Origin: Clostridium sp. BJN0013
GTDB taxonomy: Bacteria; Bacillota; Clostridia; Clostridiales; Clostridiaceae
DNA length: 64,000 nt
Assembly (NCBI RefSeq): GCF_040939125.1
Contig: NZ_CP162495.1
Location: 186,001 to 250,000, forward strand
Reading direction: 5' to 3'
Part shown: one piece after another, positions 489-50,009 of the stretch
Layout: each line of letters opens with the position of its first letter
Position numbering within the stretch: the stretch's first letter is position 1
Notes under the pieces: model-generated
What the model was told of the DNA's origin: nothing
The model's input: the letters and a program-made list of their open reading frames with translations, nothing else
Database searches by the model: none
Made by a program: the position numbers and the translations under genes

Positions 489-1495
489 AAAAACTTTGTA
501 ATTCTATAGGGCCTTCAGGATATGAAGATCAGATTAGAAATGTAATAAAAGATGAACTAAGTACTTTTAATGACAATATACTTGTAGATAGAATGGGAAA
601 TATTATAGTTAATAAGGATAAACAAGATAATTCTTCACCTAAAATAATGGTGATTTCTCATATGGATGAAGCAGGGCTTATAATAACTGCATATAATAAA
701 GATGGAACATTAAAATTTTCAACATTAGGAGATATAGATAAAAATTCACTTCCCTGTAAAACTGTTTTAATTGGAAATAAAAAAATACCTGGAGTTATTG
801 GAATAAAGCCAATACATGTTCAGAGTAAGAAGGAAAGAAATGAAGACATATCCTATGAAAGTATGTGTATAGATATAGGTGCTTTTTCTGAAGATGAATG
901 CAGGAAGGTTGTATCATTAGGTGATTTTGTAATATTTAATAGTGAATTTTCTAGTTTTGGAGATAATCTTTTAAAAGGAAAAGCTCTAGATAATAGAATA
1001 GGATGTTCTGTACTTTTAGAGTTATTAAAAGAAGATTTAAATTGTAATTTGTATGGTGTATTTAATGTTCAAGGAAATATAGATCAAAGAGGTATTTATG
1101 CAGCTGCTTACAATGTTGATCCAGATTTAGTTATAATTTTAGATACCATAAATAGTATAGATTATATGGAAATTCCTAGTTATTTCAGAACAAGTAAATT
1201 AAGAGAAGGTCCTGTGATACCTTTTAAAGGGGGACAATGTATATTTGATAGAGACATTGTAGAATCTATAAGGAATAAGGCAGATGATATAGGTATACCA
1301 TATCAAAAAATTGGGAATACCCAGGGAGAAGGAGAACTTAAAGCAGCTTATCTCACTACTAGTAATTGTAAAACAGCATCAATATTATTACCATGCAGAT
1401 ATATGAATTCTAATATTTCTGTATGTAGTTTAGCCGATTATGATAACACTTTAATCTTGTTAAAAAGTTATTTAGAGGACTATAGTATCAAGTAA
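479..1495 (+). CDS. M42 peptidase paralog with degenerate active site
   Basis: A 338-residue protein of normal M42 length, starting at TTG just after GGAGGG inside the end of the previous gene. The metal-binding motif HMDEAG (residues 61-66) and KALDNR (about 168-173) are intact. The catalytic Glu-Glu motif, normally QEEVGxRGA, reads QGNIDQRGI, so the general base and one metal ligand are missing. It also lacks the usual C-terminal PxRYMHS, reading PCRYMNS. The likely role is a non-catalytic subunit or modulator of a hetero-oligomer with the active upstream paralog, as pseudo-enzymes often are. That role is inference; the loss of residues is seen directly. The stop codon TAA lies in the conserved head (ATCAAGTAATTC) of a dispersed hairpin element. 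Confidence 0.8.
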   Translation: MFLEKLCNSIGPSGYEDQIRNVIKDELSTFNDNILVDRMGNIIVNKDKQDNSSPKIMVISHMDEAGLIITAYNKDGTLKFSTLGDIDKNSLPCKTVLIGNKKIPGVIGIKPIHVQSKKERNEDISYESMCIDIGAFSEDECRKVVSLGDFVIFNSEFSSFGDNLLKGKALDNRIGCSVLLELLKEDLNCNLYGVFNVQGNIDQRGIYAAAYNVDPDLVIILDTINSIDYMEIPSYFRTSKLREGPVIPFKGGQCIFDRDIVESIRNKADDIGIPYQKIGNTQGEGELKAAYLTTSNCKTASILLPCRYMNSNISVCSLADYDNTLILLKSYLEDYSIK

Positions 1496-1637
1496 TTCAG
1501 AGGTTCAGGAGGAGTTTGTTCATAAGGAATATTTTTCTTTATTTGAACCTTAGAAGAAATTATAAAGTGGAATAGATTCTCCACTTTGAAGAAGTTTGAA
1601 AAAGCTGGGGTTTAGCTGACTGTCTCCTTCGGACAAA
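1487..1637 (+). repeat. Dispersed hairpin element, short form, copy 1
   Basis: About 150 bp between two M42 paralogs. The head ATCAAGTAATTC contains the stop codon of the upstream gene. It is followed by the hairpin AGGTTCAGGAGGAG ... TTTATTTGAACCT, a CCACTTTGAAGAAG block and a tail ending GGACAAAT. It aligns along its length with copies at 11456, 21657, 28008, 37472, 39266 and 49860. In this list the strand is the one that reads from the ATCAAG head to the GGATAA tail. This copy lacks the extra 54-nt hairpin of the long form. Confidence 0.75.
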
Positions 1638-1665
1638 TATTTAGAATATATAAGGGGTGAAAATT

Positions 1666-2619
1666 ATGGATAAGCTTTTGTTAAAATTAATTAATTCTTT
1701 TGGGATTAGTGGCAAAGAAGATGAAATTAGACAAGTGATAAAAGAGAATTTAAAGGAATCTGATCATGATATACATGAAGATAATATAGGTAATATATTA
1801 GTGAAAGTGGGAACTGGTAAAAGTAAAGTTATGATATGTTCTAATATGGATTCAGTGGGATTTATAGTTAATGATATAGAAGAAAATGGAATGATAAAAG
1901 TAGATAATATAGGGGAGTTCAATGTTCAGGATATATCACATAGTTTTATAAGATTTCATAACGGCACATTAGGTAAAGTATGTACATGCTCAAAGGGTGT
2001 CTTTGTAGATATAGGTACAATTGATAGGGAAGATACATTAAAAAAAATAAAAGAGGGAGATATGGCATCTCTTGTAGGTCCTTATTTGAAAGTAGGAAAT
2101 AATAATATAATAAGTCCTCTACTTCATAATAAGGTAGGATGTTATATACTATTGAAACTTTTAGAAGAAATTAAAATAACAGATATGGAATTAAATTTTG
2201 TATTTGCTTCCCAAGGAGAAATTGGAGGAATAGGTGCAAGAATAGCTGCGAATACTATAAATCCTGATTATTGTATAGTAGTAGGTACTGAAAATACAAA
2301 AAACAAAGAGGAGACAAGAATAAATATAGGTAAGGGTCCGGTATTGAAAATTATGGATAGTTCTTTGATAATGCATAAAGATATAAAGGATTTATTAGAA
2401 AATGCCGCTGAAAGAGCTGATATAACACTTCAATATAGTATAAGCAAAGGTAAATCTCAAGGGGGATTGATACATAAAGAGAGAATAGGTATAAGGACTG
2501 GTGAGATTGCAGTACCATGTAGATATAAATATTCTACTTCTGAGATGGTATCTATTGATGATATAGAAAATACTATAAAGGTATTAAAGCAGTTAGAAAA
2601 TTTTAAGGAACTTATATAG
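1666..2619 (+). CDS. M42 peptidase paralog, second degenerate copy
   Basis: The third tandem M42-like gene, 317 residues. I chose ATG 1666 over an in-frame GTG nine bases earlier because that GTG is part of the ribosome-binding site AAGGGGTG. All three catalytic signatures are altered: HMDE reads NMDS, KALDNR reads PLLHNK, and QEEVG reads QGEIGGIG. Metal binding is therefore doubtful. The M42 fold is still recognisable from spacing, the GDMASL segment, the PDYCIVVGTE segment and the C-terminal PCRYKYSTSEMV. The gene looks maintained: the frame is intact and no stops occur, so it is a pseudo-enzyme rather than a pseudogene. It is separated from the preceding paralog by a hairpin element and followed 11 nt later by a VanZ-like gene. 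Confidence 0.75.
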   Translation: MDKLLLKLINSFGISGKEDEIRQVIKENLKESDHDIHEDNIGNILVKVGTGKSKVMICSNMDSVGFIVNDIEENGMIKVDNIGEFNVQDISHSFIRFHNGTLGKVCTCSKGVFVDIGTIDREDTLKKIKEGDMASLVGPYLKVGNNNIISPLLHNKVGCYILLKLLEEIKITDMELNFVFASQGEIGGIGARIAANTINPDYCIVVGTENTKNKEETRINIGKGPVLKIMDSSLIMHKDIKDLLENAAERADITLQYSISKGKSQGGLIHKERIGIRTGEIAVPCRYKYSTSEMVSIDDIENTIKVLKQLENFKELI

Positions 2620-2630
2620 GAAAGGCTGAT

Positions 2631-3068
2631 ATGAAGAAAATCAAATGGAGTCTAGTCATAATATGGATGGTAGTAATATTTATTTTTTCTAATGAAACAG
2701 CTACTATATCAAATGAAAAAAGTGGATTTTTCATATACCTAATTCAAGTTTTAGGTTTGGACTTAAATGCATCATTTGGAAAATTATCTAATTTTGTAAT
2801 TAGAAAAGTCTCTCATTTTCTTGAGTATTTTATACTGGCTATACTATTGTTTAATATTATAAAAGGTAAATTTAAAATAAAAAAAGTATTTATAATTTCC
2901 ATTATTATAGTATTTCTGTATGCTTGTTCAGATGAGATTCATCAAATATTTATACCTGGAAGAACAGCTAGAATAAAAGATATATTTATAGATACAGCAG
3001 GAGGCAGTGTAGGTCTATTAGTAGGTTATTTTATTAATAAAAAAAATTCTTATAGAAAGGAGAACTAA
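2631..3068 (+). CDS. VanZ-like membrane protein
   Basis: 145 residues with four hydrophobic segments (about 7-22, 60-80, 88-103, 118-135). The VanZ family signature is present: FSN near the N-terminus, VSHFLEYFIL after the second segment, then DEIHQIFIPGR followed by DIFIDTAGGSVG. VanZ-type proteins are small integral membrane proteins, one of which gives low-level teicoplanin resistance; most chromosomal members have no known function. It follows the M42 genes at 11 nt and is probably in their operon. Its stop overlaps the convergent uracil-DNA glycosylase gene by 4 nt, with no terminator between them. Confidence 0.85.
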   Translation: MKKIKWSLVIIWMVVIFIFSNETATISNEKSGFFIYLIQVLGLDLNASFGKLSNFVIRKVSHFLEYFILAILLFNIIKGKFKIKKVFIISIIIVFLYACSDEIHQIFIPGRTARIKDIFIDTAGGSVGLLVGYFINKKNSYRKEN

Positions 3069-3661
3069 AGATTATTTAGAACTCCTTTTAATTTTTTCCA
3101 GTCTTCTTCATACATAGATTGAAAATTTTCATTTCTATTATAGGTTAAGGCGGAAGGGTGGTACATAGGAAATATGTATTTTTTTAGATTCTCATTAAAA
3201 TAGATGGTGCCATGACATTTCCCTATGGAGTTGAATTCAGTAAAACTTTTTAGAGGTACATTTCCTAATGTTATAATTATTTTAGGATTCACAAGATCAA
3301 TTTCTTCATTTAATACTTCTTTAAATAATTTAATTTCTGATATTTTAGGAGTTCTGTTACTTATGGTCTTTTTACCATCTTTTGATATTTTAATTTTAAT
3401 TGGTCTAAAAAAACAAGTATTTGTAATTCTTACTTCTTCTCTTTCTAATCCTATGAAATTTAAATATTTTTCAAAGTTTTTTCCTGCCATACCCACAAAA
3501 GGTTTTCCTTGTATTATTTCTGTTTTTCCTGGGGCCTCTCCTATGAATAATATGGGACAAGGAATAGGTCCATTGCCAAAAATATGTCCTTCCGTAGGCG
3601 CATCTTTATAATTTTCACATATTTCTCTAATTTTCTCTTTGATTTTTTCTTCAACTTTCAT
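3065..3661 (-). CDS. Uracil-DNA glycosylase-like protein, divergent paralog
   Basis: About 198 residues from ATG 3661, which sits 8 nt after AAAGGA. An upstream in-frame ATG at 3709 has no ribosome-binding site. The UDG superfamily core is clear: FIGEAPG and GKPFVGMAG (nucleotide-binding loop), an NRTP motif after the central strand, LGNVPLK, and the C-terminal MYHPSAL with the catalytic-loop His. Compared with family 4 enzymes such as the protein at 41125, the paired N-terminal Cys (CxxC) that bind the Fe-S cluster are absent and the usual ED after GEAPG reads TEI. It is therefore a divergent member of uncertain substrate and probably without the normal 4Fe-4S cluster. Role in base-excision repair is by family only. 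Confidence 0.8.
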   Translation of the reverse strand: MKVEEKIKEKIREICENYKDAPTEGHIFGNGPIPCPILFIGEAPGKTEIIQGKPFVGMAGKNFEKYLNFIGLEREEVRITNTCFFRPIKIKISKDGKKTISNRTPKISEIKLFKEVLNEEIDLVNPKIIITLGNVPLKSFTEFNSIGKCHGTIYFNENLKKYIFPMYHPSALTYNRNENFQSMYEEDWKKLKGVLNNL

Positions 3662-3792
3662 AAAAGAATTCCTTTCTTTAATTAAATAAGTTTTTTTATA
3701 TTTTAACATAAGTATTAAATATAAAATTAATAGTGATAATTATTTTTTAAAAAAGTTTCTCACTTAAATATATATTTTCTTTCTTAATAATA

Positions 3793-3876
3793 ATTTATTC
3801 AAAGGCTACCATTGATAATATCCTTAGCTTTTTAAAAATCAAAGAATAATCACTGTTATGTCCTTGAGGATAATTA
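3793..3876 (-). repeat. Degenerate tail of dispersed hairpin element
   Basis: The 84-bp stretch with GGCTACCATTGATAAT, a TTTTTAAAAATCAAAG block and AATCACTGTTATG followed by GAGGATAA aligns with the tail half of the element copies at 28008 and 11456, which read GCTACCATTGCTAA ... CTTCTTCAAAGTGG ... AAGCACTGCTACG ... GGATAA. The head hairpin is absent. The match is partial, so confidence is moderate. The rest of the 300-base gap (3662-3962) is plain AT-rich sequence apart from the promoter noted below. Confidence 0.45.
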
Positions 3877-3922
3877 ATTTTTATCGAATTGTATTGATAC
3901 ATTTCATTTAAAAAAATGATAG

Positions 3923-3931
3923 TGTTATAAT
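3923..3931 (+). promoter_or_regulatory. Extended -10 promoter for aminotransferase gene
   Basis: TGTTATAAT gives an extended -10 (TG one base before TATAAT) 32 nt upstream of the start codon. No good -35 hexamer is visible at 17 bases, which fits an extended -10 promoter. Confidence 0.4.
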
Positions 3932-3962
3932 ACTACTAGAATTATTCAGAGAGGTGATTTTG

Positions 3963-5099
3963 TTGAAGGTTCCATATATATTGACACCAGGTCCTACAGA
4001 AGTTAGAGAAAATGTTAGATTTGCAAGGAGCATGAGATTTACTAATCCAGACTTGGATATACAATTTTATAATTTTTATAGAGATACCTGTAAAAATATA
4101 GGTCAATTATTAAAGACTAAAAATCAGATTAGAATATTAGGTGGAGAGGGTATGTTAGGATTGGAAGCAGCCTGTGCATCTCTTACAGAAGAGGGGGATA
4201 GGGTACTTGTAATTGATAATGGCATATTTGGAGAAGGATTTTCGGATTTAGTGAAGTTGTATGGGGGAAAGGTTGTATTTTTTAAGGGAAATAGGAAAAA
4301 AGATATAGATTTAAATGAATTAAAGGAATTTTTAAATAAAGATAGTAATTTTAAATATGCAACAATAGTACATTGTGATACTCCATCGGGAATATTAAAT
4401 GATGTATCAAAAATATGTCCTTTGCTTAAAGAAAAAGGTATATTAACTTTAGTAGATAGTGTTTCTGCAATGGGAGGAGAAAAATTAGAAGTTGATAATT
4501 GGAACATAGACATAGTGGTAGGAGCTTCACAAAAATGTATTTCGGCTCCACCAGGACTTACTTTGATTAGTATAAGTGATGAAGCTTTTAAGGTTATGAA
4601 AAATAGAAATCAGCCCATAAAGTCTTTTTACTGTAATTTATTAGTTTGGGAAAAATATTATGAAAATAGATGTTTTCCATATACTCTTCCAATAAGTGAT
4701 ATAATTGGACTTAAAGTAGCTATAGATAATATTTTAGAAGATAAGGATATCTTGGAAAGACATAGAATAATTGCCCAAAGTGTAAGAAAGACTATTATAG
4801 AAGCGGGTCTTAATCTATATATAGAAAAAGGTTATTCTAATACAGTTACTGTTATCGAGGTTCCAAAAGGCATAGAAGAAAAGCAAATTAGAAAATTTAT
4901 GTTAAATAATTTTAATGTTATGATAGCAGGTTCTTTTGGATATTTGGAAGGAAAAGTTTTAAGAATAGGTCATATGGGAGAAAATGCAAGAAAAGATTTG
5001 ATAAGTTATAGCCTTTATGCTCTTCAAGAAGCTTTAAAGTATTTGGGCTTTCAATGTAAATGTAATATGCCACAATTTTTTTTAAGACATTGCAGATGA
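3963..5099 (+). CDS. Class V PLP-dependent aminotransferase (alanine-glyoxylate type)
   Basis: About 378 residues. I chose TTG 3963, six bases after GAGGTG; the in-frame GTG at 3954 is part of that ribosome-binding site. The protein opens with YILTPGPTEV, the hallmark start of the serine-pyruvate / alanine-glyoxylate / ureidoglycine aminotransferase group. It has the PLP-phosphate loop GGEGMLGLEAA, the ring-stacking VDSVSAMGG (Asp binds the pyridine N), and GASQKC with the Schiff-base Lys. The C-terminal domain has the usual RIGHMG. The last 15 residues are Cys-rich (CKCNMPQFFLRHC) and extend past the usual family end. The exact substrate pair is not decidable. The gene stands alone between two unrelated transcription units. 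Confidence 0.85.
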   Translation: MKVPYILTPGPTEVRENVRFARSMRFTNPDLDIQFYNFYRDTCKNIGQLLKTKNQIRILGGEGMLGLEAACASLTEEGDRVLVIDNGIFGEGFSDLVKLYGGKVVFFKGNRKKDIDLNELKEFLNKDSNFKYATIVHCDTPSGILNDVSKICPLLKEKGILTLVDSVSAMGGEKLEVDNWNIDIVVGASQKCISAPPGLTLISISDEAFKVMKNRNQPIKSFYCNLLVWEKYYENRCFPYTLPISDIIGLKVAIDNILEDKDILERHRIIAQSVRKTIIEAGLNLYIEKGYSNTVTVIEVPKGIEEKQIRKFMLNNFNVMIAGSFGYLEGKVLRIGHMGENARKDLISYSLYALQEALKYLGFQCKCNMPQFFLRHCR

Positions 5100-5545: not shown

Positions 5546-10450
<4,905 letters not shown>

Positions 10451-10506
10451 AATATATTTACTGTGCAATTTTGAGGGGATAAAACTCCTGAACAAAAGAA
10501 TAGAAA

Positions 10507-10622
10507 TCTGGTGGCAATAACGTGGAGGCAACACCCCTTACCATTTCGAACAGGAAGGTTAAGTTCCACAGTGCCCATGGTACTGCAGGGGAGGCCCTGT
10601 GGGAGAGCAGGTCGCTGCCGGA
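10507..10622 (+). rRNA. rrf: 5S ribosomal RNA
   Basis: About 116 bases with TCTGGTGGCAATAACGTGG, the loop C segment CCATTTCGAACAGGAAGG and the end GGTCGCTGCCGGA pairing with the start. It lies 57 nt after 23S. RNase M5, which matures 5S in Firmicutes, is encoded at 46380. Confidence 0.95.
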
Positions 10623-10629
10623 TATGTTT

Positions 10630-11423: not shown

Positions 11424-11455
11424 AAAATCACCTCTAATTTATATTGAATGTTATT

Positions 11456-11599
11456 TTATCCGAACGATACCATTGCTAACGTCCTAACTTCTTCAGGGGG
11501 GATAAGCACTGCTACGCGTCTGGATAAGTTCTTCTAGGTTCATATGGAGAAAAGTATTCTTTATGAGCAAACTCCACCTGAATCTAAGAATCACTTGAT
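11456..11599 (-). repeat. Dispersed hairpin element, short form, copy 2
   Basis: Reads on the minus strand from ATCAAGTGATTCTTAGATTC to a tail ending GGATAAAA. The head hairpin arms are TTCAGGTGGAG and CTCCATATGAA with a TTTGCTCATAAAGAATACTT loop. The head supplies the TGA stop of the parvulin gene (Ile-Lys-stop from ATC AAG TGA). The tail block contains CGCGTAGCAGTGCTTATCC and GTTAGCAATGGTA. Confidence 0.8.
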
Positions 11600-12460: not shown

Positions 12461-12517
12461 TTGGATGGAGGAAAGTATTTTATAGCAAAATCTACTTGAA
12501 TTTAAGAATCATTTGAT
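12461..12517 (-). repeat. Head fragment of dispersed hairpin element
   Basis: Only the head hairpin region survives: ATCAAATGATTCTTAAATTC, then AGTAGATTTTGCTATAAAATACTTTCCTCCA. It ends near 12461, where the element becomes unrelated AT-rich sequence. It supplies the TAA stop of the LD-carboxypeptidase gene. Confidence 0.6.
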
Positions 12518-21656: not shown

Positions 21657-21858
21657 TTTATCCGAATGCTTCAATTAGCTAATACTCTCATTCTCTTCAA
21701 ATTAGGAGATAAACACTGCTATGCGCTTGGATAAGTTCTTCCCCTAAAGGATAACGTATTCTAAGTGCTAAAGACACTAAGAATACTGTTAATAAGGTTC
21801 AGATGGAAAAAAGCATTCCTCATGGGCAAACTCTACCTGAACTTAAGAATCACTTGAT
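21657..21858 (-). repeat. Dispersed hairpin element, long form, copy 3
   Basis: About 202 bp between the motB terminator and the trmN6-like gene, antisense to both. Head ATCAAGTGATTCTTAAGTTC at 21858, hairpin arms CAGGTAGA and TCCATCTG, and a tail ending GGATAAA. It carries the additional hairpin cassette (21741-21793: GTATTCTAAGTG pairing with CACTAAGAATAC). Confidence 0.8.
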
Positions 21859-27146: not shown

Positions 27147-27199
27147 CTTAATTAAAAGAATACCCGTTTACGATATAAATAAGTATTTATATTGATTAC

Positions 27200-27251
27200 A
27201 AAAGGAGTGCTGCAAAACTACCTTTTAAAGTAGTTTTGCAGCACTCCTTTT
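27200..27251. terminator. Bidirectional terminator between nucleotidyltransferase and rubrerythrin
   Basis: A perfect 22-bp stem: AAAAGGAGTGCTGCAAAACT then AC, loop CTTTTAAA, and the complement. Very strong; serves both convergent genes. Confidence 0.92.
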
Positions 27252-27843: not shown

Positions 27844-28007
27844 AGAAATTACCTCCTAAAAATAAATTAATATTTTGTTTTATAATTTAAAAATAAGTAT
27901 TTTTTAATACATTTATAAGTAACTTGATTGATAATTTTTAATGACTATTTATCAAATAGATTAATAGTCTTCTCAGTTTATTTAGGAGACTATCATAAAA
28001 CATAAGT

Positions 28008-28210
28008 TTTTATCCGAACGCTACCATTGCTAATACTCTCATCTTCTTCAAAGTGGGAAATAAGCACTGCTACGCGCCTGGATAAGTTCTTCCCCTAAAG
28101 GATAACGTATTCTAAGTGCTAAAGACACTAAGAATACTGTTAATAAGGTTCATGATGGAAATAAGCAGTTCTCTACAGTAAACTCCACCTGAACCTAAGA
28201 ATAACTTGAT
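28008..28210 (-). repeat. Dispersed hairpin element, long form, copy 4
   Basis: About 203 bp, sense relative to the dfx gene; it begins one base past the dfx stop (ATCAAGTTATTCTTAGGTTC). The head arm CAGGTGGA is followed by TCCATCATGAACCT. The additional cassette lies at 28092-28145. The tail ends CGTTCGGATAAA at 28008. Located between dfx and rbr, so it could be part of the dfx 3' UTR. The remaining 27844-28007 holds the probable rbr promoter region, with no clear hexamers. Confidence 0.8.
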
Positions 28211-28630: not shown

Positions 28631-28650
28631 TGACCTAAGAATCACTTGAT
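28631..28650 (-). repeat. Short head fragment of the dispersed hairpin element
   Basis: ATCAAGTGATTCTTAGGTCA matches the element head for about 19 bases, then ends. It follows the stop of the small zinc-ribbon gene by 4 bases, mirroring the placement of full copies after other genes. Short matches can arise by chance, but position and exact match support it. Confidence 0.5.
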
Positions 28651-28825: not shown

Positions 28826-29021
28826 ATTAGTTTATTTTTTAGCCTAAGTACTAAATTGAATTTACTCTTTAATTATACCCTAAAAAAATTAAATATTCAA
28901 TAGTTATTATAGTTTTTTAATAAATAGTTTTAAATAATAATAATTTAAAATTATTTATATAGTTGTAAAGACATTATTTTAAGAGAGTTCTTATTCGTTA
29001 TATAATTAGCTTAATTAAGAG

Positions 29022-29110
29022 CAACTGTACAGGATTATGAAGGTAGGTTTAAGGGAATTAGACGAATGCGAGATAATAAAATTGCTTGCAGCCTGTATCA
29101 AGTACAGTTG
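29022..29110. repeat. Inverted repeat bracketing 71 bases
   Basis: CAACTGTAC (29022-29030) and GTACAGTTG (29102-29110) form a perfect 9-bp stem, extended by AGG and CCTG inside. The enclosed sequence is more G-rich than its surroundings (AGGTAGGTTTAAGGG, GCTTGCAGCC). It could be a small structured RNA or a relic. The rest of 28826-29124 is AT-rich. Confidence 0.4.
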
Positions 29111-29124
29111 ACATCTTAAAAGTG

Positions 29125-29976
29125 TTATTGTAAAGCAGTCTTTTCAATATTTGAGGAAAGTCTTTTTATGCCAAGATACATTATCAAAAGTCCAATGATA
29201 GATAATAGGGCTATAATAAGAATATTTGAGCTAATTAGCAATAAAAACTGTGGATAGCATTGAAGTAAAATGCTTGTAATTACATTATAGAGTATATCGC
29301 CAATTATACATAAATATAATGAATAAGTTTTTATATAAAGGTAACCTAATAAGATTCCAAGTATAAAAGCGCACATAAATGCTGCAGGGCTAAAGGTAGA
29401 TATTCCAAACAGCAGTGAGGATATCAATATTGCTTTTAGATTGGAATATTTTTTGGAAAGTCCGCCGACAATAATACCTCTAAATACAAACTCTGTTAAT
29501 AAAGGTCCAATGACATATGAGTATCCAATAAAAAATACAGGATTTTTATTAATAAGTTGTATGCTTTTCATAACTAAGCTAAATCCCGGAAGAATTTTAT
29601 CTATTGGCATCAAAAGTGAATCGAAAAACAGCAGATAACCTAAAACAATCAGTATTAGAAGCAATGAATTAATTAAAGTAAATTTTTTTACCGGTCTCAC
29701 TTTAATTTTATCTTTACTAAGATTAGTAATGTAATATCCATAGAATACTGCAGTAACTGCGAAAAAAGTAACTCCTAATATAAAAATAGACAATGACAAT
29801 TTTAATATGATATTGTTGAATAGGCTAATCACATGGAAACTGATGCCTAAAGAAAAATACAATATCAATATATAAGAAATTGCAGCAAGTACTGCATCTG
29901 TAATACTCAGCTTTTTAACCTCTGATTTTTCATTTTCAAGATTTGATAAAATTTTAAAAGAATTTAAATTAGACAT
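29125..29976 (-). CDS. CPBP-family intramembrane protease-like protein, altered active site
   Basis: 283 residues with eight or so hydrophobic segments. The CPBP (Rce1/Abi) signature motif EExxxR reads TEFVFRG, so the first Glu is Thr. The second motif FxxxH reads FGISTFS, lacking the His. The third (H/N) region reads GDILYNV. These changes make proteolysis doubtful. It is the last gene of a PadR-permease-prefix-CPBP operon. In related operons such proteins are tied to bacteriocin self-immunity or membrane stress, but no bacteriocin gene is visible. Function unknown. Confidence 0.7.
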   Translation of the reverse strand: MSNLNSFKILSNLENEKSEVKKLSITDAVLAAISYILILYFSLGISFHVISLFNNIILKLSLSIFILGVTFFAVTAVFYGYYITNLSKDKIKVRPVKKFTLINSLLLILIVLGYLLFFDSLLMPIDKILPGFSLVMKSIQLINKNPVFFIGYSYVIGPLLTEFVFRGIIVGGLSKKYSNLKAILISSLLFGISTFSPAAFMCAFILGILLGYLYIKTYSLYLCIIGDILYNVITSILLQCYPQFLLLISSNILIIALLSIIGLLIMYLGIKRLSSNIEKTALQ

Positions 29977-30024
29977 AATTAAACCTCCCCATAAAAATTA
30001 AATTTTTATTATTTCATTTTACTT

Positions 30025-30618
30025 TTATTTTTGATTTTGAAGTTTATTCTTAATGAAATATACCTTCATAATTAAAACTGTAATTAATATAATGCCAGAT
30101 ATAATGATTAAAGTTTCTTTTACGTGATTTGGAAAAAGTATAAAGGAAACAAAAAATACACTAAAGATGATATCGCATAGGGCTATTAGATATAAAAATA
30201 CGCTTTTGTTTTCAATATTGATATGTTGGTAGAAAGCAATGCACCCGATAATCCAAGAAATACTAAAAAGTAAAGAAGTAAGATTTTGAAAAGTAAGACT
30301 GCCATTATTAAAAAGAATATGAATGATGAACAAGATACAACCAGTTATAAAAATGGCAATTGCTGTTTTTACAATTTTCAAAGTAAACTCGCTTTTTCTT
30401 GTCCATATGCTGTTCATTTCTGAAATAACATTGTTTTCTTCACCAAAATTCTTCAAGGTAATTTTTATACTTTCTTCCTCGCTGAAACCTTGATCTTGCA
30501 GCTCTAATACCTCATCATGAAGGTTTGATTTCAGTTCTTCTCTAAGTATTTGGATATCCTTGTCAGATTCATTGAACTTGCTGCAAATACGGTCTACATA
30601 CAGGTCAATTTTATTCAT
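30025..30618 (-). CDS. Permease-prefix-domain membrane protein (PadR partner)
   Basis: 197 residues. The N-terminal 60 residues are soluble and helical: YVDRICSKFNESDKDIQILR then EELKSNLHDEVLEL and EEESIKITLKNFG, matching the permease-prefix / DUF1700-like domain often encoded after PadR regulators. Four hydrophobic segments follow (about 82-100, 108-125, 132-150, 160-182). It overlaps the PadR gene by 8 nt, so they are translationally coupled. Molecular role unknown; likely an anti-sigma-like or transporter-associated adaptor. Confidence 0.65.
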   Translation of the reverse strand: MNKIDLYVDRICSKFNESDKDIQILREELKSNLHDEVLELQDQGFSEEESIKITLKNFGEENNVISEMNSIWTRKSEFTLKIVKTAIAIFITGCILFIIHILFNNGSLTFQNLTSLLFSISWIIGCIAFYQHINIENKSVFLYLIALCDIIFSVFFVSFILFPNHVKETLIIISGIILITVLIMKVYFIKNKLQNQK

Positions 30619-30952
30619 TAATGTTCACCTCCAAAAAATGATCTAATAGTTCCCTAAGAACCACCCATTCCTGAACTTTTTCTTTAAAAAAATTCAAACC
30701 TTCTTGTGTAATCCTATAATAACGTCTTCTCCCGCCACCAGTATTTTCATCGTCATTCCAGTATCCTTCCAAATAATTTCTCTTTTCCAGTCTCTTTAAA
30801 GATACATATAAGGTTGCTTCCTTCATCTCAAAGTTTTTATTTGTTTGTTTTATGGTTTTTCCAACTTCATAACCATACATATCTTTATGTTTTAAGATTG
30901 ATAAAACGATTATATCAATATAGCCTTTTAATAATTCCTTTTCGAATTCCAC
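30611..30952 (-). CDS. PadR family transcriptional regulator
   Basis: 113 residues. Winged-helix domain: IDIIVLSILKHKDMYGYEVG, ATLYVSLKRLEKRNYLEGYW and the wing GGRRRYYRITQEG, all typical of PadR. A C-terminal helix for dimerisation follows. It probably represses its own operon through the long palindrome at 30995-31033. The signal it responds to is unknown. Confidence 0.9.
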   Translation of the reverse strand: MEFEKELLKGYIDIIVLSILKHKDMYGYEVGKTIKQTNKNFEMKEATLYVSLKRLEKRNYLEGYWNDDENTGGGRRRYYRITQEGLNFFKEKVQEWVVLRELLDHFLEVNINE

Positions 30953-30994
30953 TACAACAGCACTCCTAACTAAATTAGTTCATCGTATAAAGTA

Positions 30995-31033
30995 TTCTAA
31001 TATAATATAGTTCTTTACTATATTATATTAGAA
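30995..31033. promoter_or_regulatory. Long palindrome upstream of padR, possible operator
   Basis: TTCTAATATAATATAGT and its exact complement, 17 bp each, around a 5-base loop, 43 nt before the padR start. A second small palindrome AACTAAATTAGTT lies at about 30968-30980. PadR proteins bind palindromes near their own promoter. The TATAAT-like sequence inside also makes it a promoter candidate. The rest of the gap to 31370 shows no gene. Confidence 0.55.
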
Positions 31034-31370
31034 AGTACTTGATAATATCAATTACTTTCGTAAAATAATTAGGTTTATTACATAATGTTGAAAATGTTGC
31101 CGGAATTATGGTATAGGGATGGAATGAGATGAACTGTAACATTCTAACAAGATCACATTAAAACAGTAATACTCAAGAATAAATGTCAATATCATAATAC
31201 GACAAATTATAATATAATTTAAGACAATAGACTACATTTATATTTTCTTGAAATATATGAGCTTTTTTCGAAAAAGTGGACACTTTAGAGTTAGAAATTC
31301 TCTTAATGTCGCATAATTATTATTCTTGCCATTGATTATAATATTCCATATAAAATTAGCTATGATGCCA

Positions 31371-31808
31371 TTAAAATCTTAAATTTTTTTCTGAATTGAG
31401 CATGCTGCATGTTATTTTATTCCTTCGAACACAATCTTTTACAGTTGCAAGGTATAGCCAGCCTTCATGTATACCAATATAACTGATATCAGTTACCCAC
31501 ACAGAATTTGAACTTTCAACTTTAAAATCTTGGTTTAAAAGATTCTCAGCTACTGGAAGTTTATGATCGGAGTATGTAGTTGCCTTGAATTTTCTTTTCC
31601 CTATGGAGTAAAGTTTATTTCCACTTTGTATCCTGTAAAGTCTCTGCCTGCTGCAGTGTGGAAATTTTTCTCTTACATCACAAAGAAGCTTGTCAAGCCC
31701 GCAAATCCCATGGCTTTTAAAATAACTGGACCGTACTATTTTAAGTATCTGCTTGTTTTCAGCTTTTATCTTACTTTTTAACGGCTTATTCAGTAACATC
31801 CACTGCAT
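31371..31808 (-). pseudogene. Truncated IS3 transposase orfB
   Basis: 145 residues. Contains the HTH_21-like KSHGICGLDKLLCDVREKFP, the IS3 block SRQRLYRIQ, and WVTDISYIGIHEGWLYLATV-KD with the first catalytic Asp. After KDCVRRNKI, where DLYSRKIVGW is expected, the frame ends with NSEKNLRF. The second Asp and Glu of the DDE triad are therefore missing. The N-terminal part that normally precedes the HTH is also missing. Confidence 0.75.
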
Positions 31809-32013
31809 GACACATTAAATAATTTGCACATCTTTGTAACCGAATGTATGGCCACGCTGACGTCTCATTTTTGCTATTTACCCAATTTCTCAAGGTCTGG
31901 TCATTTATACCCAAATCTTTTGCTGCGCTGTTCACAAACCTTCTTTTTTCCAGTACAAGTTTTATGGCATCTGATCTAAATTCTGCATTATACCTCTTAC
32001 CATTACCTGACAT
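31786..32013 (-). pseudogene. IS3 transposase orfA, 3' end diverged
   Basis: 75 residues. MSGNGKRYNAEFRSDAIKLV and AAKDLGINDQTLRNWVNSKN form the IS3 orfA helix-turn-helix. The region after residue 50 (SAWPYIRLQRCANYLMC) does not match the leucine-zipper part expected, so the 3' half has been replaced or frameshifted. ATG follows GGAGGAGATAATAA. Confidence 0.65.
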
Positions 32014-32263
32014 TTATTATCTCCTCCATATAATTATTATATCTAACTCATATGTGTTCATCAATTCGAGTACAGGTCACTACGGTTCTATGATCCAAGA
32101 TATAATCTTCCAAAATGAAATATATAATATTTATATTCTACATAAAAACTCAAAATCATTTTTGTCCAAAACAAAAAACTACTGACAGAATATGTTTGTC
32201 AGCAGTCTGAACACCTATTTACAATATAAATAAGTATTCTTTTAATTTTGATGTAGTATGCAT

Positions 32264-37471: not shown

Positions 37472-37621
37472 TTTATCCAAAGGTGGCAATTAAGCTAAAT
37501 TCCCAACTTCTTCAAAGTGGAGGATAAGTACTGTTGTGCGCCTGGATAAGTTTTTTTAAGATTCAGTTGGAGAAAAGCGGTGATTATGAGCAAACTCCGC
37601 TGAATCTAAGAATTACTTGAT
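37472..37621 (-). repeat. Dispersed hairpin element, short form, copy 5
   Basis: Head ATCAAGTAATTCTTAGATTC, stem arms AGATTCAGCGGAG and CTCCAACTGAATCT, whose compensated change (G-C to A-T at the third pair) supports structure. Tail contains GGCGCACAACAGTACTTATCC and ends GGATAAAA. It lies in the 5' leader of the glucosaminidase gene, antisense to it. Confidence 0.8.
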
Positions 37622-39155: not shown

Positions 39156-39266
39156 AAAAGCCTCTATGAAATTAAAATTAAGATGTATCTCAGAAAGTAG
39201 ACAATAGAAAAGGCTGCTCTATAGGGTATATTTTAAAGTAACTAAACTTCATAAGGGCTTTTTTAT
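39156..39266 (+). terminator. Long-range stem after glucosaminidase gene, terminator candidate
   Basis: AAAAGCCTCTATGAA (39156-39170) pairs with TTCATAAGGGCTTTT (39248-39262) around about 78 bases, followed by a T run. The arms are close to perfect, but the enclosed segment is long for a simple intrinsic terminator. It runs into the tail of the next hairpin element. Confidence 0.5.
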
Positions 39267-39471
39267 TTATCCGAAAACAGCAACTAGAACTTAACTACCT
39301 CCAACTTCTTCAAAGTAGGGGAATAAGTACGGCTATGCCCTTTATAAGTTTTTCCCCTAAAGGATAACGTATTCTAAGTGCTAAAGACACTAAGAATACT
39401 GTTAATAAGGTTCAAATGGAGAAAAGCATTCCTTATGAGCAAACTCCACTTGAACCTAACAATCACTTGAT
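39266..39471 (-). repeat. Dispersed hairpin element, long form, copy 6
   Basis: Head ATCAAGTGATTGTTAGGTTC, arms AAGTGGAG and CTCCATTT, where the C-G pair of other copies becomes T-A, a compensated change. The additional cassette lies at 39354-39408, identical to those at 21741 and 28092. Tail ends GGATAAA. The element starts 18 nt after the stop of the 39489 gene, in sense with it. Confidence 0.8.
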
Positions 39472-41721: not shown

Positions 41722-42000
41722 AGTGTTAAATACCATGAAGGAAAGAGTAGTAAATTAATTTTGTACAAAGAGAGTCGACAATTTGGTGAAAGTCGAAAGC
41801 AAAATAGTTTATGAATATGGCTCTGGAGTATACCATTTGAAGTAGTGAAATTAATATTAGGATGGTACGGCATCAACCGTTATATTGAAAGGTAATATTA
41901 TTTACTTACAAATGTCTTTATTGTGAGATAAAGATGAAATAGAGTGGTAAAGCGTATTCTACGCCTCTATATGAAGAAAGTTTTCATATAGAGGTTTTTA
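41722..42000 (+). promoter_or_regulatory. T-box riboswitch, Met specifier, before metG
   Basis: Stem I elements AGAGAGTCGAC and GGTGAAAGTCGA, then the specifier loop with TGAATATGGCTCTGGAG containing ATG, matching the downstream methionyl-tRNA synthetase. The T-box core reads AGAGTGGTAAAGCG (41941-41954), a variant of the AGGGTGGTACCGCG consensus. The terminator stem is CCTCTATATGAA / TTTCATATAGAGG followed by TTTTTA (41964-42000). Uncharged tRNA-Met is expected to favour antitermination. Confidence 0.88.
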
Positions 42001-45230: not shown

Positions 45231-45265
45231 GAGGTATGTCGCTCTTGCCCAGAGGAGGTATTTTT

Positions 45266-46321
45266 ATGATGGAAAAGTTTAAAACTTACTTAAAGAAATA
45301 TTTTTCCGACGGTCCCAAGGTAGAATCTATTATAGTTATAAGTTTAACAATAAGTTTAGTAGTTATAAGTTTAACAATATTTTATATGATAAAAACGATA
45401 ACTATTTCAGTAGATGGCAGTGACAAAAAAATTGCCACGTTTGGTGGTACTTACAAAGAAGTTTTGGATAATAATGGAATTAAATTGGGATCAAAGGATA
45501 AGGTAAAGCCTAGTCTAGACAGTAGAGTGAAAGATAAAAGTAAATTATCAATTATAAGGGCAGTACCAATTGAAGTAAAAGTGGATGGTAAAAAATTAAA
45601 TATAGAGTCTGCTGAACATAATGTTAAAGATATGTTACGGGCAGAAAAAATTCAACTTTCAAATCTTGATAAAGTATATCCATCTAAAGATTATGCAATT
45701 AAAAAAGGATTAAAAGTAGTAGTGACTAGGGTGAAGACTAAAGACGTAAAAGAGATTACAAATATAGACTATGATATAGTTATAAAAAATGATAGTGAAA
45801 TTGAAAGTGGGGCCAAGAAGGTTCTACAAGAGGGGCAAAATGGAGAAAAACAAACTATTACCAGAATAATATATGAGGATGATAAAGAAGTTTCTAGAAA
45901 GGTTATCAGTGAAATTGTAGAAAAAGAACCAGTGCAGCAGATAGTAGCTGTAGGAACATTAAATAGTGACTATACCCTTTCTAGAGGGGGAAATTTTAGT
46001 TATGCTAAATTCTTGCAAATGAAAGCAACTGCATATACTGCGGACTATGAAAGTACAGGCAAAGGACCTGGGCATCCGGATTTTGGCATAACAGCCTCAG
46101 GAACTGTAGCTCGAAGAAGCAGTGGAGGCTACAGCTCTGTAGCAGTTGATCCTAGAGTGATACCGCTTGGTACCAAACTTTATATAGAAGGTTATGGATA
46201 TGCCATAGCTGAAGATACAGGAGGTGCCATTAAAGGTAATAGGGTAGATTTGTTTTTTAATTCTGCTTCTGAAGCAAATAACTGGGGCGTGCGATGGATT
46301 AATGTTTATGTTATGGATTAG
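45266..46321 (+). CDS. YabE-like membrane-anchored 3D-domain protein (DUF348/G5/3D)
   Basis: 351 residues from ATG 45266, seven bases after GGAGG. An N-terminal transmembrane anchor (about 20-45) precedes two DUF348 repeats (about 48-150), a G5-like domain (about 160-240) and a C-terminal 3D domain (about 265-350) with MKATAYTADYESTGKGPGHP, GYSSVAVDPRVIPLGTKLYI, GYAIAEDTGGAIKGNRVDLF. The three Asp of the 3D motif are conserved, as in Rpf-like cell-wall lytic transglycosylases such as YabE and Stps. In Bacillus yabE lies next to rnmV as here. Confidence 0.9.
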   Translation: MMEKFKTYLKKYFSDGPKVESIIVISLTISLVVISLTIFYMIKTITISVDGSDKKIATFGGTYKEVLDNNGIKLGSKDKVKPSLDSRVKDKSKLSIIRAVPIEVKVDGKKLNIESAEHNVKDMLRAEKIQLSNLDKVYPSKDYAIKKGLKVVVTRVKTKDVKEITNIDYDIVIKNDSEIESGAKKVLQEGQNGEKQTITRIIYEDDKEVSRKVISEIVEKEPVQQIVAVGTLNSDYTLSRGGNFSYAKFLQMKATAYTADYESTGKGPGHPDFGITASGTVARRSSGGYSSVAVDPRVIPLGTKLYIEGYGYAIAEDTGGAIKGNRVDLFFNSASEANNWGVRWINVYVMD

Positions 46322-46343
46322 GGGCATGTGCTCCTCTTTTTTC
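46320..46343 (+). terminator. Terminator after 3D-domain protein gene
   Basis: AGGGGC, loop ATGT, GCTCCT, then CTTTTTTC; starts inside the stop codon. Confidence 0.6.
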
Positions 46344-46379
46344 TTTTAATAGGAAAATTAAATATTAATGGGGGAAAAT

Positions 46380-46940
46380 ATGATTAAAGAAGTAATAGTT
46401 GTTGAAGGAAAGGACGATATATCTGCAGTTAAAAGAGCCGTAGATGCAGAATTGATAGCTGTAGGTGGTTTTGGAATAAATAGAAAGGTTATTGATGAAA
46501 TAAAAGAAGCTCAAAATAGACAGGGTGTAATAGTTATGACAGATCCGGACTTTGCAGGAGAAAAAATAAGGAAAATCATATCTAAAAGAGTTAAAGGTAT
46601 AAAGCATGCCTATATATCTCAAGAAGATGGGATAAAAAACGGTAATATTGGTATTGAAAACGCATTACCAGAAACTATAATAAATGCTTTGAAAAATGCT
46701 AAGTGTGAATTGAAAGAGAAGAGAAAAGAATTTAAAGTAGAAGATATGGTATTTTTTCAGCTTACAGGAGGTGCAAAATCTAAAATGAAAAGAGATATGC
46801 TTGGTAAAGAGTTAGGTATAGGATATTGTAATTCATCCCAATTTCTAAAAAGACTAAATAATTATGGCATAGCAAGAGAGGAGTTTGAAAAAGCTATAGA
46901 TAAAGTAAGTAATCTAATAAAGGAGAAAGAAAATGAATAA
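46380..46940 (+). CDS. rnmV: Ribonuclease M5 (5S rRNA maturase)
   Basis: 186 residues from ATG 46380, five bases after GGGGG; the ATG at 46368 is part of the ribosome-binding site region. Toprim domain: [13 protein letters not shown] (catalytic Glu) and [15 protein letters not shown] (DxD). It cleaves 5S precursor ends in low-G+C bacteria. Overlaps rsmA by 8 nt. Confidence 0.92.
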
Positions 46941-47778
46941 TTTATCTACTAGAGAAATAGTGGAAAAATATAATTTTAGATTTTCGAAAAATTTAGGACA
47001 AAATTTTTTAATAGATAATTCTGTATTACATGACATATTGGAAGGCACGGATATAAATAAAAATGATTTTATTATAGAAATAGGACCAGGAGTAGGCACG
47101 TTAACAAAAGAACTTTTAAAAAGGGCTAAAAAAGTTTGTGCTATAGAACTGGATTCAGATTTAATTGCCATACTAAAAGAAGAATTAAAATATTATCCTA
47201 ATTTTGAATTAATACATAAAGATGTACTAAAGATAAATTTTAACAAAATAATAAAGGATGAATCAAGTGTAAAAATTGTGGCTAATCTTCCATATTATAT
47301 TACTACTCCTATTATTTCAAAACTTTTAAATAATCATTATAATTTCAAAACTTTAACTATAATGATTCAAAGAGAAGTAGGTGAAAGAATAGTATCAGAG
47401 CCTAATTGTAAGCAATATGGGGCACTTTCTTTATTGGTTCAGTATTATTGTAGTGTAGAAATACTTAGAAAAGTTAGTCCCTATGCATTTATTCCATCAC
47501 CTAAAGTTGATTCTATAGTTATAAAATTAACTAAGTTAAAAAGTCCTAAAGTTAAAATTAAAAGTGAAGATTTATTTTTTAGGGTAATAAGATGTTCTTT
47601 TAATATGAGAAGAAAAACTTTATGGAATGCCTTAAAAACCTTAAAGCTATCTAAGGAATATATGGAAAAAGCATTTAATAAAGCTGGAATAGATCCCAAG
47701 AGACGGGGAGAGACTCTTTCTATAGAGGAATTTGGCGTATTGTCAGATTGTATATATGAATTAACATACAGGGTATAA
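46933..47778 (+). CDS. rsmA: 16S rRNA (adenine(1518)-N6/adenine(1519)-N6)-dimethyltransferase
   Basis: 281 residues. [31 protein letters not shown] (SAM motif), [17 protein letters not shown] (NLPY catalytic motif) and QREVGERI. Dimethylates A1518 and A1519 of 16S; loss gives kasugamycin resistance. Coupled to rnmV by overlap, the same order as in Bacillus. Confidence 0.95.
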
Positions 47779-47869
47779 CATGTTTTCTAACTGAGGATAA
47801 AACTATTTGTTCACTTTTTGAGAGTTATCTCATATATTATAATGAAGATAATATATGGAGGTATAGAAG

Positions 47870-49168
47870 TTGGCACAAAAAAAGAGTTATAGTAGATACT
47901 TTATAATATTACAAGAAGATGAAAAAGGATACTCTTTAGCTTCTGACAAGATTGCTTCAGGATATGCAAAATTGGAAACAAAAAATGATAAGTGTAAAAT
48001 ATCTTACTATGTACAGAATTTAAAGAAAGAAAAAACCCCTTATTATATGATGCTAATATGTAATAAAAAAGGTATAAAAAATATAATTAAAATTGGTGAA
48101 ATGAACATAGATGATTATGGAAGAGCAGATACATGTTATGAATATCCCATAAATGATGTAGCAGGAAGTGGCATAGCTATGGATAAGGTATCAGGAGCTG
48201 CTATAGTTAGGATATTGGATAATAATATAATACCTGTAATGAGTGGGTTCTCAAGTACTGAAATACCGAATTGGAGATCTTTTACAGTAATAGAAGACAG
48301 GGGTGATGAAGCAAAGGACGATATAAAAGAAGATGAAAGTAAAATAAGTGAAAATGAAATAGTAGAACAAGAAGTGGAAAAGAAAGAAAAAAGCATATTT
48401 GATAAATATGAAGACAGTATAGAAAAAGCTAAAAGTGATAGAGAAAAAACTGAAGTTGAAAAAGATAATGAAGAAGACAAGCAATTTATAGAGGAAATAG
48501 AGAATGAACAAAGTCAGGAAGATGACCAAAAAAGTAAAGAAGTTTTTGTAGATAAAAAAGAAGAACCAATATCAGATGATGTATTTGAATCAAAAATTAG
48601 AGAAGATCTTCAGGAGGAGAATGTAACTCTAGAAGAAGAACTAGAAGAAGAGGATTCTCTCTATATAGATAATTTTGCAGAAAAGCACTGTGAAAAGTCA
48701 AAAGCAAGTGATCATAAGTGTGAGGATAGATGTATGAATGGAAATTATCGAAGAAACTCACAGGGGAATTTTTTTAATAAACTTGTGTATGGCTTTAAGG
48801 AGATAAAGAATTTAAATAAGGAATTAAAAAGATGCAAATGGTATAAGGTACCTGCAAATTCTATAGAAGACATGTATAATATGGATGATTATAGTAGATA
48901 TGCCTTAGTTTACTATCCTATGATAGGATACTATCCTTATATAAAGAAACATCTTCATTATTTGACGGGATATAAATTTGATAAGAATAATAAAGTAAAA
49001 TATTTAATATATGGTATACCAGGCACTAACAGTAAGAAGGATCAGCCATATGGAGGTAAGTCAGGATTTGTTACATGGATACCTAAGGAAGGTAAAGATA
49101 AAATGGGATACTGGTTAATGTTCTATGATTTTAAGACAAATACCATAGTCATACCAGTGAAAAAGTGA
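47870..49168 (+). CDS. Uncharacterised clostridial protein with long acidic middle region
   Basis: 432 residues, TTG 47870 after ATGGAGGTATAGAAG. Residues about 1-145 form a beta-rich globular domain (YSRYFIILQEDEKGYSLASD, GYAKLETKNDKCKI). Residues about 155-280 are a low-complexity, highly acidic Glu/Lys/Asp-rich segment. The C-terminus (about 310-432) is another globular domain with WYKVPANSIEDMY and YLIYGIPGTNSKKDQPYGG. I do not recognise the family with certainty; the fold pattern recalls clostridial spore-associated proteins, but that is inference. Four nt precede the next gene, so they form an operon. Confidence 0.6.
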   Translation: MAQKKSYSRYFIILQEDEKGYSLASDKIASGYAKLETKNDKCKISYYVQNLKKEKTPYYMMLICNKKGIKNIIKIGEMNIDDYGRADTCYEYPINDVAGSGIAMDKVSGAAIVRILDNNIIPVMSGFSSTEIPNWRSFTVIEDRGDEAKDDIKEDESKISENEIVEQEVEKKEKSIFDKYEDSIEKAKSDREKTEVEKDNEEDKQFIEEIENEQSQEDDQKSKEVFVDKKEEPISDDVFESKIREDLQEENVTLEEELEEEDSLYIDNFAEKHCEKSKASDHKCEDRCMNGNYRRNSQGNFFNKLVYGFKEIKNLNKELKRCKWYKVPANSIEDMYNMDDYSRYALVYYPMIGYYPYIKKHLHYLTGYKFDKNNKVKYLIYGIPGTNSKKDQPYGGKSGFVTWIPKEGKDKMGYWLMFYDFKTNTIVIPVKK

Positions 49169-49172
49169 AATT

Positions 49173-49769
49173 ATGACACCTATTATTAAATCAATAGTAA
49201 TAAATAAGAGAAAACTTGGAGTTACCATAATTATAATAGGTCTTATGATAATACTTTTAGGACTTGAAAAAAATTTTGATATGAAATTAAAATTTACAGC
49301 TCTTATGCAAAATAATATAAAATATTTAACTCAGTATGAAGGAATGGAAAGTAAATTAAAGTATAAACTGCCTTCCAAGTGGTCTTCTAAGAATCAAGAT
49401 ATATTTGGAAATGAAATATTATACCATAGTGATTTTAAAAGTGAAGATAATAAAATAAGAGGATTTGTTGAAGTATGGAATTTAGATGGAAGCTTAAAAT
49501 CATTTTTACAAAATAGTAAAATTATATCTCAAAAACAGAATTTATATAAGAAGTATCACATAAATGAGATTGAGATTAACGGAAGTAGTGGATACTTAGT
49601 TGAATATACTATTACAAAAGAAGTAGGAGATAGTTATAAAGGTATGGAGTATTTTTTAAAAAAAGGAACTCAATTTTGTAGATTTTCTTTTTTTGTAAAT
49701 GAATCAGATTTTAAAGAGAATATGCCAACTATATTTGAAACTATTGTTAAAACATTAGAGTATAAATAG
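49173..49769 (+). CDS. Membrane-anchored hypothetical protein, PsbP/DcrB-like
   Basis: 198 residues with an N-terminal anchor (about 15-30, LGVTIIIIGLMIILLGL) and a beta-rich extracytoplasmic domain. The motif pattern KLPSKWSSK ... FVEVWNLDGSL ... GYLVEYTITK ... FSFFVNESDF resembles PsbP/DcrB-like lipoproteins in clostridia. Function unknown. Operon with the preceding gene; ends at a terminator. Confidence 0.55.
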   Translation: MTPIIKSIVINKRKLGVTIIIIGLMIILLGLEKNFDMKLKFTALMQNNIKYLTQYEGMESKLKYKLPSKWSSKNQDIFGNEILYHSDFKSEDNKIRGFVEVWNLDGSLKSFLQNSKIISQKQNLYKKYHINEIEINGSSGYLVEYTITKEVGDSYKGMEYFLKKGTQFCRFSFFVNESDFKENMPTIFETIVKTLEYK

Positions 49770-49787
49770 AGATGTGTATAATTTCTT

Positions 49788-49825
49788 CCCTTTCAGTTTA
49801 TCATTATGGAAGGGGATTTTTTATA
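49788..49825 (+). terminator. Terminator after membrane protein gene
   Basis: CCCTTTC pairs with GGAAGGG, followed by GATTTTTT. Confidence 0.7.
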
Positions 49826-49859
49826 TTTAAATATGATATAATTATTTAGAGACTTTTTA

Positions 49860-50009
49860 ATTAAGTGATTCTTATATTCAGATGGAGTTTGTTATAGAGA
49901 GATGCTTTTCTCCATCTGAACCTTAGAAGAACTTATAAAGGCGTGTAGCAGTGTTTATACCTTACTTTGAAAAAATGGAGGTGTTAGCTAATTGCCGTAT
50001 TGGGATAAA
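49860..50009 (+). repeat. Dispersed hairpin element, short form, copy 7
   Basis: Head ATTAAGTGATTCTTATATTC, arms AGATGGAG and CTCCATCT with a TTTGTTATAGAGAGATGCTTT loop, then CTTAGAAGAACTTATAAAGG, GTGTAGCAGTGTTTATACC and GTTAGCTAATTGCC, ending GGGATAAA. It lies after a terminator and before the lipoprotein gene, sense with both. Confidence 0.8.

Follow-up and report, generated by a model that had tools for sequence, protein, structure and literature searches.

The window analyzed here is a stretch of 64,000 nucleotides of Clostridium sp. BJN0013 (contig NZ_CP162495.1, positions 186,001 to 250,000), whose genome is a single contig of 4,101,691 bases. It holds copies of a dispersed element made of two adjacent hairpins. 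This element occurs in high copy number, inserts at ATAAA, is present or absent between close species, and has a fold that is kept phylum-wide by compensatory change. We regard it as very probably a non-autonomous, gene-free mobile element of about 130 to 150 nt.

The repeats were first noticed from the letters of the window alone. That original prediction described a dense dispersed family of seven full copies, two head fragments, and one degenerate tail, and all ten were located at the positions given. The head, ATCAAGTGATTCTTAGGTTC, occurs nine times in the window with at most three mismatches, compared to 0.03 times expected from shuffling, and the block CGCGTAGCAGTGCTTATCC occurs four times with none expected. 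The family proved larger than claimed. R1, a covariance model derived from 40 copies of the short form, returned at least 150 full-length matches in the 4.1-Mb genome, all with E values of 2.2e-13 or lower. Five of the seven window copies are among the R1 matches listed; copies a (1487) and g (39266) are not, yet both are clear by nhmmer. Copy a is without most of the CGCGTAGCAGTGC block and is thus full-length in outline only. Two features had been overlooked, namely, the genome-wide extent of the family and a 51-nt module present in three of the window copies.

Using mechanical calls of open reading frames (ORFs), we found none of 63 own-genome copies inside an ORF of at least 90 amino acids. 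The flanking genes of these copies were both forward in 20 cases, both reversed in 19, divergent in 15, and convergent in 7, with one side undetermined in 2. Within the window, copy a overlaps the stop codon of the ORF at 479-1495. Exact matches to a 48-nt consensus pattern were also found in the named genomes of C. ragsdalei P11, C. ljungdahlii ERI-2, and C. carboxidivorans P7.

Insertion at ATAAA

We compared the window with syntenic DNA of two relatives, G011 and G004 (G and L numbers are our handles for genomes and loci), which are 88-94% identical to it in the main blocks. When a nearby, opposite-oriented G011 copy is set apart, six of the seven full window copies are absent from both relatives at the matching site. 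Five of these (a, c, d, f, and g) are missing with the target retained. At copy c, the empty site reads CTCATAAATT and the filled site GTCAT[CAAG...CGGAT]AAATT. Copy b is the only full copy common to both relatives; it is short in the window and long in both of them, and between G011 and G004 it is less alike than its 600-base flanks (91.4% versus 96.5%). Three copies of the relatives are missing from the window.

The ends of the element were then read from alignments. Among 100 nhmmer matches with E values of 1e-15 or lower, 86 reach the last model position at the right end; 79 of these 86 end in GGATAAA and 83 in ATAAA, beyond which conservation ceases. This recount was made without selecting ends, whereas the ends in an earlier logo had been chosen for CGGATAA with at most one change. 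At the left end (n = 95), AT is present at 99% and nothing outside it is conserved. We also fetched 40 diverged copies, 20 from searches of the class and family and 20 from other classes. In these, the left end reads AT[ACT]AA in 33 and the right end is an exact ATAAA in 29, in direct orientation. Because the right ends, the halted conservation, and the empty sites agree, ATAAA belongs to the target. Insertion occurs at this pentamer, which reads TTTAT on the opposite strand, without producing any longer duplication.

On the complementary strand the element lies 3' of TTTAT, and at most a 2-bp AT is common to both ends, an overlap that is indistinguishable from none. Apart from this AT, the alignments contain neither the terminal inverted repeats nor the target duplication of a miniature inverted-repeat transposable element (MITE) of the insertion sequence type. 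Head-to-tail pairs provided a further view of the junction. In one pair (L151), the two copies have a single ATAAA in common, as read at the junction, and two further listed pairs (G356:C111 and G933:C63) overlap by exactly 5 bases.

Two conserved hairpins and a nested module

The short form consists of two adjacent imperfect hairpins and measures about 150 nt in the window and 114-142 nt in the diverged copies fetched. Hairpin 1 runs in the order AAGT, a GA/GA internal loop, TTCT, a U-U mismatch, and then AGGTTCAGGTGGAG with its partner arm. Hairpin 2 has TTATCC at its start and GGATAA at its end, so that the pairing proposed for these two motifs is the base of this hairpin. The paired arm changes that had been reported, AGGTTCAG/CTGAACCT, AGGTTCAA/TTGAACCT, and AGATTCAG/CTGAATCT, are present; in the copy at 11456, AGATTCAG stands opposite ATGAACC and the pair is broken.

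Three of the seven window copies (21657, 28008, and 39266) are long forms, with 51 extra nt in the 3' arm of hairpin 1 between CCTTA and GAAGAAC. This module occupied a single fixed place in 44 of 44 BLAST places (40 scored automatically and 4 by reading), with one further partial case. The first query carried the module, which biases the sample. Among 40 long copies, nearly all of them found with that module-bearing query, identity was 97.7% in the module compared to 83% and 74% in the outer parts. Since the module was seen at one place inside the element only, we rejected the idea that it inserts independently. Its first 18 nt, counting the preceding A, are identical to the head (ATTAACAGTATTCTTAGT) of a diverged element (L157) that comes from another family. 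Judged from this match, the module resembles a first hairpin of another branch that has shrunk and become nested at a fixed site. One full copy was found inserted in the hairpin-1 loop of another copy (L058). In a copy from G015 (L074, 305-492), the hairpin-1 loop is filled by another hairpin, about 40 nt long, implying that the loops accept other inserts.

The two-hairpin plan was seen in the printed folds of all 40 diverged copies, imperfectly in some. In the first 40 copies aligned, two-sided variation was present at nine pairs, and in 58 model-aligned copies 37 of 48 pairs had two-sided change. The covariation score of the 58 copies was 0.272; shuffles gave 0.111 (0/500), and sliding the structure gave no more than 0.077. 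With 28 of the diverged copies in a structure-blind MAFFT alignment, RNAalifold returned 30 pairs, 22 of them with compensatory change. Folding energies were below those of dinucleotide shuffles, with z scores of -5.8 (L038) and -8.1 (L073), and of -3.7 for a partial copy d. Selection on a folded single strand, as originally proposed, is strongly supported by the covariation scores and the structure-blind alignment. At gathering score, the element has no match to any Rfam family.

The sense strand folds better than its complement in 51 of the 58 copies under RNA parameters, in 54 of 58 under DNA parameters, and in 36 of the 40 diverged copies. One G-U pair is retained in 54 of the 58 copies and is A-U in 3. 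Overall, G-U cells outnumber C-A cells by 174 to 83, which weakly favors the sense strand.

The suggested search of this and other clostridial genomes with a covariance model found the fold in many of them. With R1, 81 of the 206 genomes from the bacterial family (23 of 46 genera) and 27 of the 391 from the class proved to carry the element. At E values of 1e-6 or lower, this model gave no match in four members of the genus (G001, G002, G008, and G012). With a second covariance model, R2, matches were obtained in 39 of 398 genomes at the level of the phylum, and 37 of these 39 lie outside the class. We searched for carriage on mobile DNA as well. Copy d had no match in phage and plasmid collections, three diverged copies had none among plasmids, and an exact 20-mer of the element had none in IMG/VR, although such collections may omit near records. 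An IMG/VR metagenome contig (L197) has an R2 match at 7100-7223 (45.5 bits, E 9.2e-9), which shows that DNA classified as viral can carry relatives of the element. At another locus (L161), an element copy is flanked by a cobalamin riboswitch and a Clostridiales-2 RNA (791-989 and 1311-1392).

Table 1. Copies, fragments, and modules of the two-hairpin element in the 64,000-nt window
Feature	Position	Strand	Form	Evidence and comparison with relatives
Copy a	1487..1637	+	Short form, degenerate second hairpin	nhmmer E 1.3e-31; orthologous site empty in L077 and L081
Degenerate tail fragment (second hairpin)	3793..3867 (end approximate)	-		Repeat family D9
Copy b	11455..11599	-	Short form	R1 133.9 bits; relatives' counterparts L077 5755-5962, L081 5611-5808
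Head fragment (first hairpin, decayed)	12461..12517 (left limit from the original prediction)	-		Head match at 12498-12517
Copy c	21657..21858	-	Long form	R1 88.3 bits; empty site in L078 and L082
51-nt module within copy c	21742..21792	-		Repeat D6, alignment
Copy d	28009..28210	-	Long form	R1 109 bits; empty site in L078 and L082
51-nt module within copy d	28093..28143	-		Repeat finding, alignment
Head fragment, about 17-20 nt	28631..28650	-		Head match
Copy f	37472..37621	-	Short form	R1 114.1 bits; absent in L078 and L082, target letters drifted
Copy g	39266..39471	-	Long form	nhmmer E 3.2e-35; absent at same place in L079 and L083, left flank diverged
51-nt module within copy g	39355..39405	-		Repeat finding, alignment
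Copy h	49860..50009	+	Short form	R1 113.2 bits; absent in L083, L079 with nearby opposite-oriented copy

Around copy d, about 150 adjoining bases (window 27859-28008) are missing from both relatives along with the element, by a second insertion or a deletion there. An inverted repeat pair of 53 nt, 74% complementary, lies about 5 kb apart at 27150-27202 and 32195-32247. The interval 28964-32140 has no aligned block longer than 400 bases in G004, and these inverted repeats may bound an inserted segment. The window further contains an rRNA operon (5546-10623) and two T-box leaders (41726-41971 and 57843-58067); no tRNA genes were found in it.

Candidate routes of mobilization

In the account that we favor, the target supplies the ATAAA of the right end. 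One folded strand, most likely ATCAAG...GGATAAA, would be the form recognized by an enzyme acting in trans. This enzyme would be a recombinase or transposase that recognizes the hairpins, and such recognition may be what selects the fold.

Several observations weigh against this account. Searches for Y1_Tnp and RVT_1 brought up no mobilizing enzyme, with no search aimed at recombinase families. Y1_Tnp is lacking in 4 of the 30 element-rich genomes (G003, G004, G015, and G173), where past loss is possible; element-rich genomes are those with at least 15 scored matches in the R1 family search. RVT_1 is absent from 5 of the 16 element-bearing genomes searched (G003, G007, G015, G131, and G155). 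No autonomous version with the same ends was seen, the IS200 copies of the own genome having unrelated hairpins, and 50 Y1 loci examined hold no strong element match, the best reaching 27.6 bits. With regard to insertion, copy h has no clean junction in G004, where it is absent, and an opposite-oriented copy lies nearby in G011; target letters had drifted in 2 of 9 comparisons (copy f and L077 12528), the left flank of copy g is diverged in the relatives, and the end letters of the diverged copies lean on the model. With regard to the fold, the 58-copy alignment was fitted to the structure, and the 28 copies of the structure-blind alignment were chosen by the analyst from the 40 diverged copies, 12 being left out. 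The antisense strand of L038 likewise beats its shuffles (z -4.1). When the three pairs with G-U as the major form are left aside, there are more C-A cells (81) than G-U cells (62), and ordinary decay thus reveals no preference for either strand.

The original prediction had named an IS200/IS605-type element as one candidate. In this scheme, a Y1 HUH transposase would excise a single strand and insert it 3' of TTTAT; on the complementary strand, hairpin 2 would be the left end and hairpin 1 the right end. The target anatomy fits, with no longer duplication, a fixed pentamer on one flank, hairpins near each end, and similar pentamers at the two ends (TTTAT at one and TTGAT, TTTAT, or TTAAT at the other). 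In addition, Y1_Tnp is present in 26 of the 30 element-rich genomes, many with the class of 180-240 amino acids. The enzyme and the strand do not fit. Two of the four element-rich genomes without Y1_Tnp are assembled in 1 or 2 contigs. The strand that folds better is opposite to the one used in this scheme, and any replication-strand bias is at most weak (Fisher p 0.076 for the 150 matches listed, with the contig start taken as origin).

We examined 20 loci of longer Y1 genes, mostly RAYT-like genes of 180-240 amino acids but including one locus from an element-free genome (L210) and one longer gene (L219). They hold 4 elements in 3 loci, which is no clear excess over the roughly 2.2 expected, a figure computed by hand from the listed density of the own genome (at least 150 per 4.1 Mb) and applied to other genomes. 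We therefore rejected Y1 as the driver, considering its absence from four element-rich genomes, the unrelated IS200 ends, and the lack of a clear element excess at RAYT-like genes. Overall, we hold an IS200/IS605-type route to be possible but doubtful. Elements overlapping a RAYT-like Y1 gene, or within about 100 bp of one, were seen at L201 1077-1836 (G007), L214 1199-1963 (G044), and L216 5586-6393 (G192). The own genome also carries nine nearly identical IS200-type copies (L109 and L123-L130) with ACCACCTGC hairpin ends unrelated to the element, two of them with a stop inside the transposase frame.

We give a similarly tentative standing to site-specific recombination at TTTAT repeats by a tyrosine or serine recombinase, which has been proposed in print for bcr-type repeats. 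Such a reaction would agree with the ATAAA-like pentamers that stand as direct repeats at the two ends of most diverged copies, with the one pentamer that remains in empty sites, and with the one common to head-to-tail pairs. On the other hand, no particular recombinase was tied to the element, recombinase families not having been searched for, and recombination alone does not explain the covarying stems.

It appears improbable that the element is a retro-element, with an RNA copied from a nick after TTTAT, whose 3' end would pair with an RNA end AUAAA. The more stably folding strand does end in AUAAA and could pair with TTTAT in this way. However, RVT_1 is missing in those 5 of 16 genomes, for which reason we rejected the reverse transcriptase of a group II intron or other retro-element as the driver. 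In addition, 5' truncation does not predominate among the fragments: of the three in the window, two are heads.

Least probable of all is a host regulatory RNA, such as a terminator, stabilizer, or 3' untranslated region (3'-UTR) element, multiplied for its usefulness in mRNAs. The strong RNA-like fold and the intergenic location of all 63 copies are in keeping with it, and 51% and 40% of bcr1-bcr18 copies are reported as transcribed in two B. cereus strains (PMC3446304). Against this, the 63 copies show no preferred orientation to genes, which does not support a 3'-UTR element; the 3'-UTR reading of the original prediction and a terminator role were both rejected on this ground. Moreover, the absence of six of seven window copies from such close relatives and the faster divergence of shared copy b than of its flanks also speak against a useful RNA. 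The last original candidate, a relict RNA of an RNA-guided nuclease, found no support in Rfam, which includes HEARO and where no family matched the element; nuclease genes such as those of TnpB and IscB were not searched for.

Relation to bcr1 and other known repeats

A rep-PCR primer pair attributed to the Bacillus cereus group, which our searches did not find in print, spells ATAAAGTGAAACTTTAATCAGTGGGG. The joined sequence is close to the heads of three elements (L149, L162, and L174), and 10 IMG/VR contigs, 9 of them with one common flank, contain an exact match to a 25-mer taken from it. The element found there, which we call bcr1-like on the strength of this primer pair, is 158 nt long and ends in GGGATAAA in L187 and L192; it is shorter or cut elsewhere. 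R2 matched it weakly (23.2 bits and E 0.002 in L187 and L192; 17.9 bits and E 0.037 in L189) and listed no bcr1-like element in the other seven of the 10 contigs. A plasmid of Pseudalkalibacillus hwajinpoensis (Bacilli) has two R2 matches (E 2.1e-11 and 4.9e-11), and its copy was also reached from the bcr1-like side by blastn (73.5% over 80% of the query, E 8e-12). Searching for the primer pattern with two changes found a copy in one of 73 genomes (G1024), which scored 42.7 bits with R2. Because the Pseudalkalibacillus copy bridges the bcr1-like and clostridial sides, common descent with bcr1 is likely but not proven, and naming bcr1 here depends on the primer pair.

The title of a 2004 paper on bcr1 reportedly calls it specific to the B. 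cereus group. Insertion polymorphism is also a feature of bcr1. The element is intergenic and polymorphic in the same manner, but its fold spans the phylum, and that host restriction was not seen. The two are alike in a size of about 150 bp, high copy number, a TTTAT motif at the ends, and hairpins, while stem letters, second hairpin, and host range differ. A table in PMC2267715 gives bcr1 as 147 or 167 bp; elsewhere, TTTAT repetitions are tied to its mobility, with up to 130 copies (PMC6542083, PMC3446304), and bcr1-3 are described as MITE-like (PMC3446304).

By its description, Efa-1 of Enterococcus faecalis resembles the element: it measures 163 bp, is intergenic in its 65 copies, and forms two stem-loops side by side (PMC2267715). 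Non-autonomous elements derived from IS200/IS605 and REPINs share with it hairpins near both ends, a fixed short target, and no longer duplication, but the element has no matching transposase ends and no dependable transposase co-occurrence. The Y1 gene flanked by its repeat, as in REPIN/RAYT systems, was not found here (4 elements in 3 of 20 loci). Pneumococcal BOX elements are likewise dispersed and structured with an optional inner module. In our literature searches, no paper was recognized as describing the element in clostridia, the repeats of C. perfringens and C. tetani that are among those listed in PMC2267715 not having been compared by sequence.

Taken together, we regard the element as a new branch, much broader in its spread, of a type of repeat that is probably already known. 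A bolder and rather speculative view would make it a phylum-wide superfamily of gene-free two-hairpin elements, inserted at TTTAT by an enzyme other than a Y1 transposase or a reverse transcriptase. The folded strand would be the substrate of this enzyme, the route of mobilization would be one not yet described, bcr1 and perhaps Efa-1 would be local branches, and the long form would nest the shrunken hairpin of another branch at one fixed site.

So far, descriptions of such repeats have each been confined to a single host group. With a covariance model that recovers one two-hairpin fold across many families, these local curiosities become one testable superfamily, with a precise target rule, a testable structure, and the question of which enzyme moves a gene-free element. 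For the gas-fermenting clostridia, the element represents an abundant possible source of genome change.

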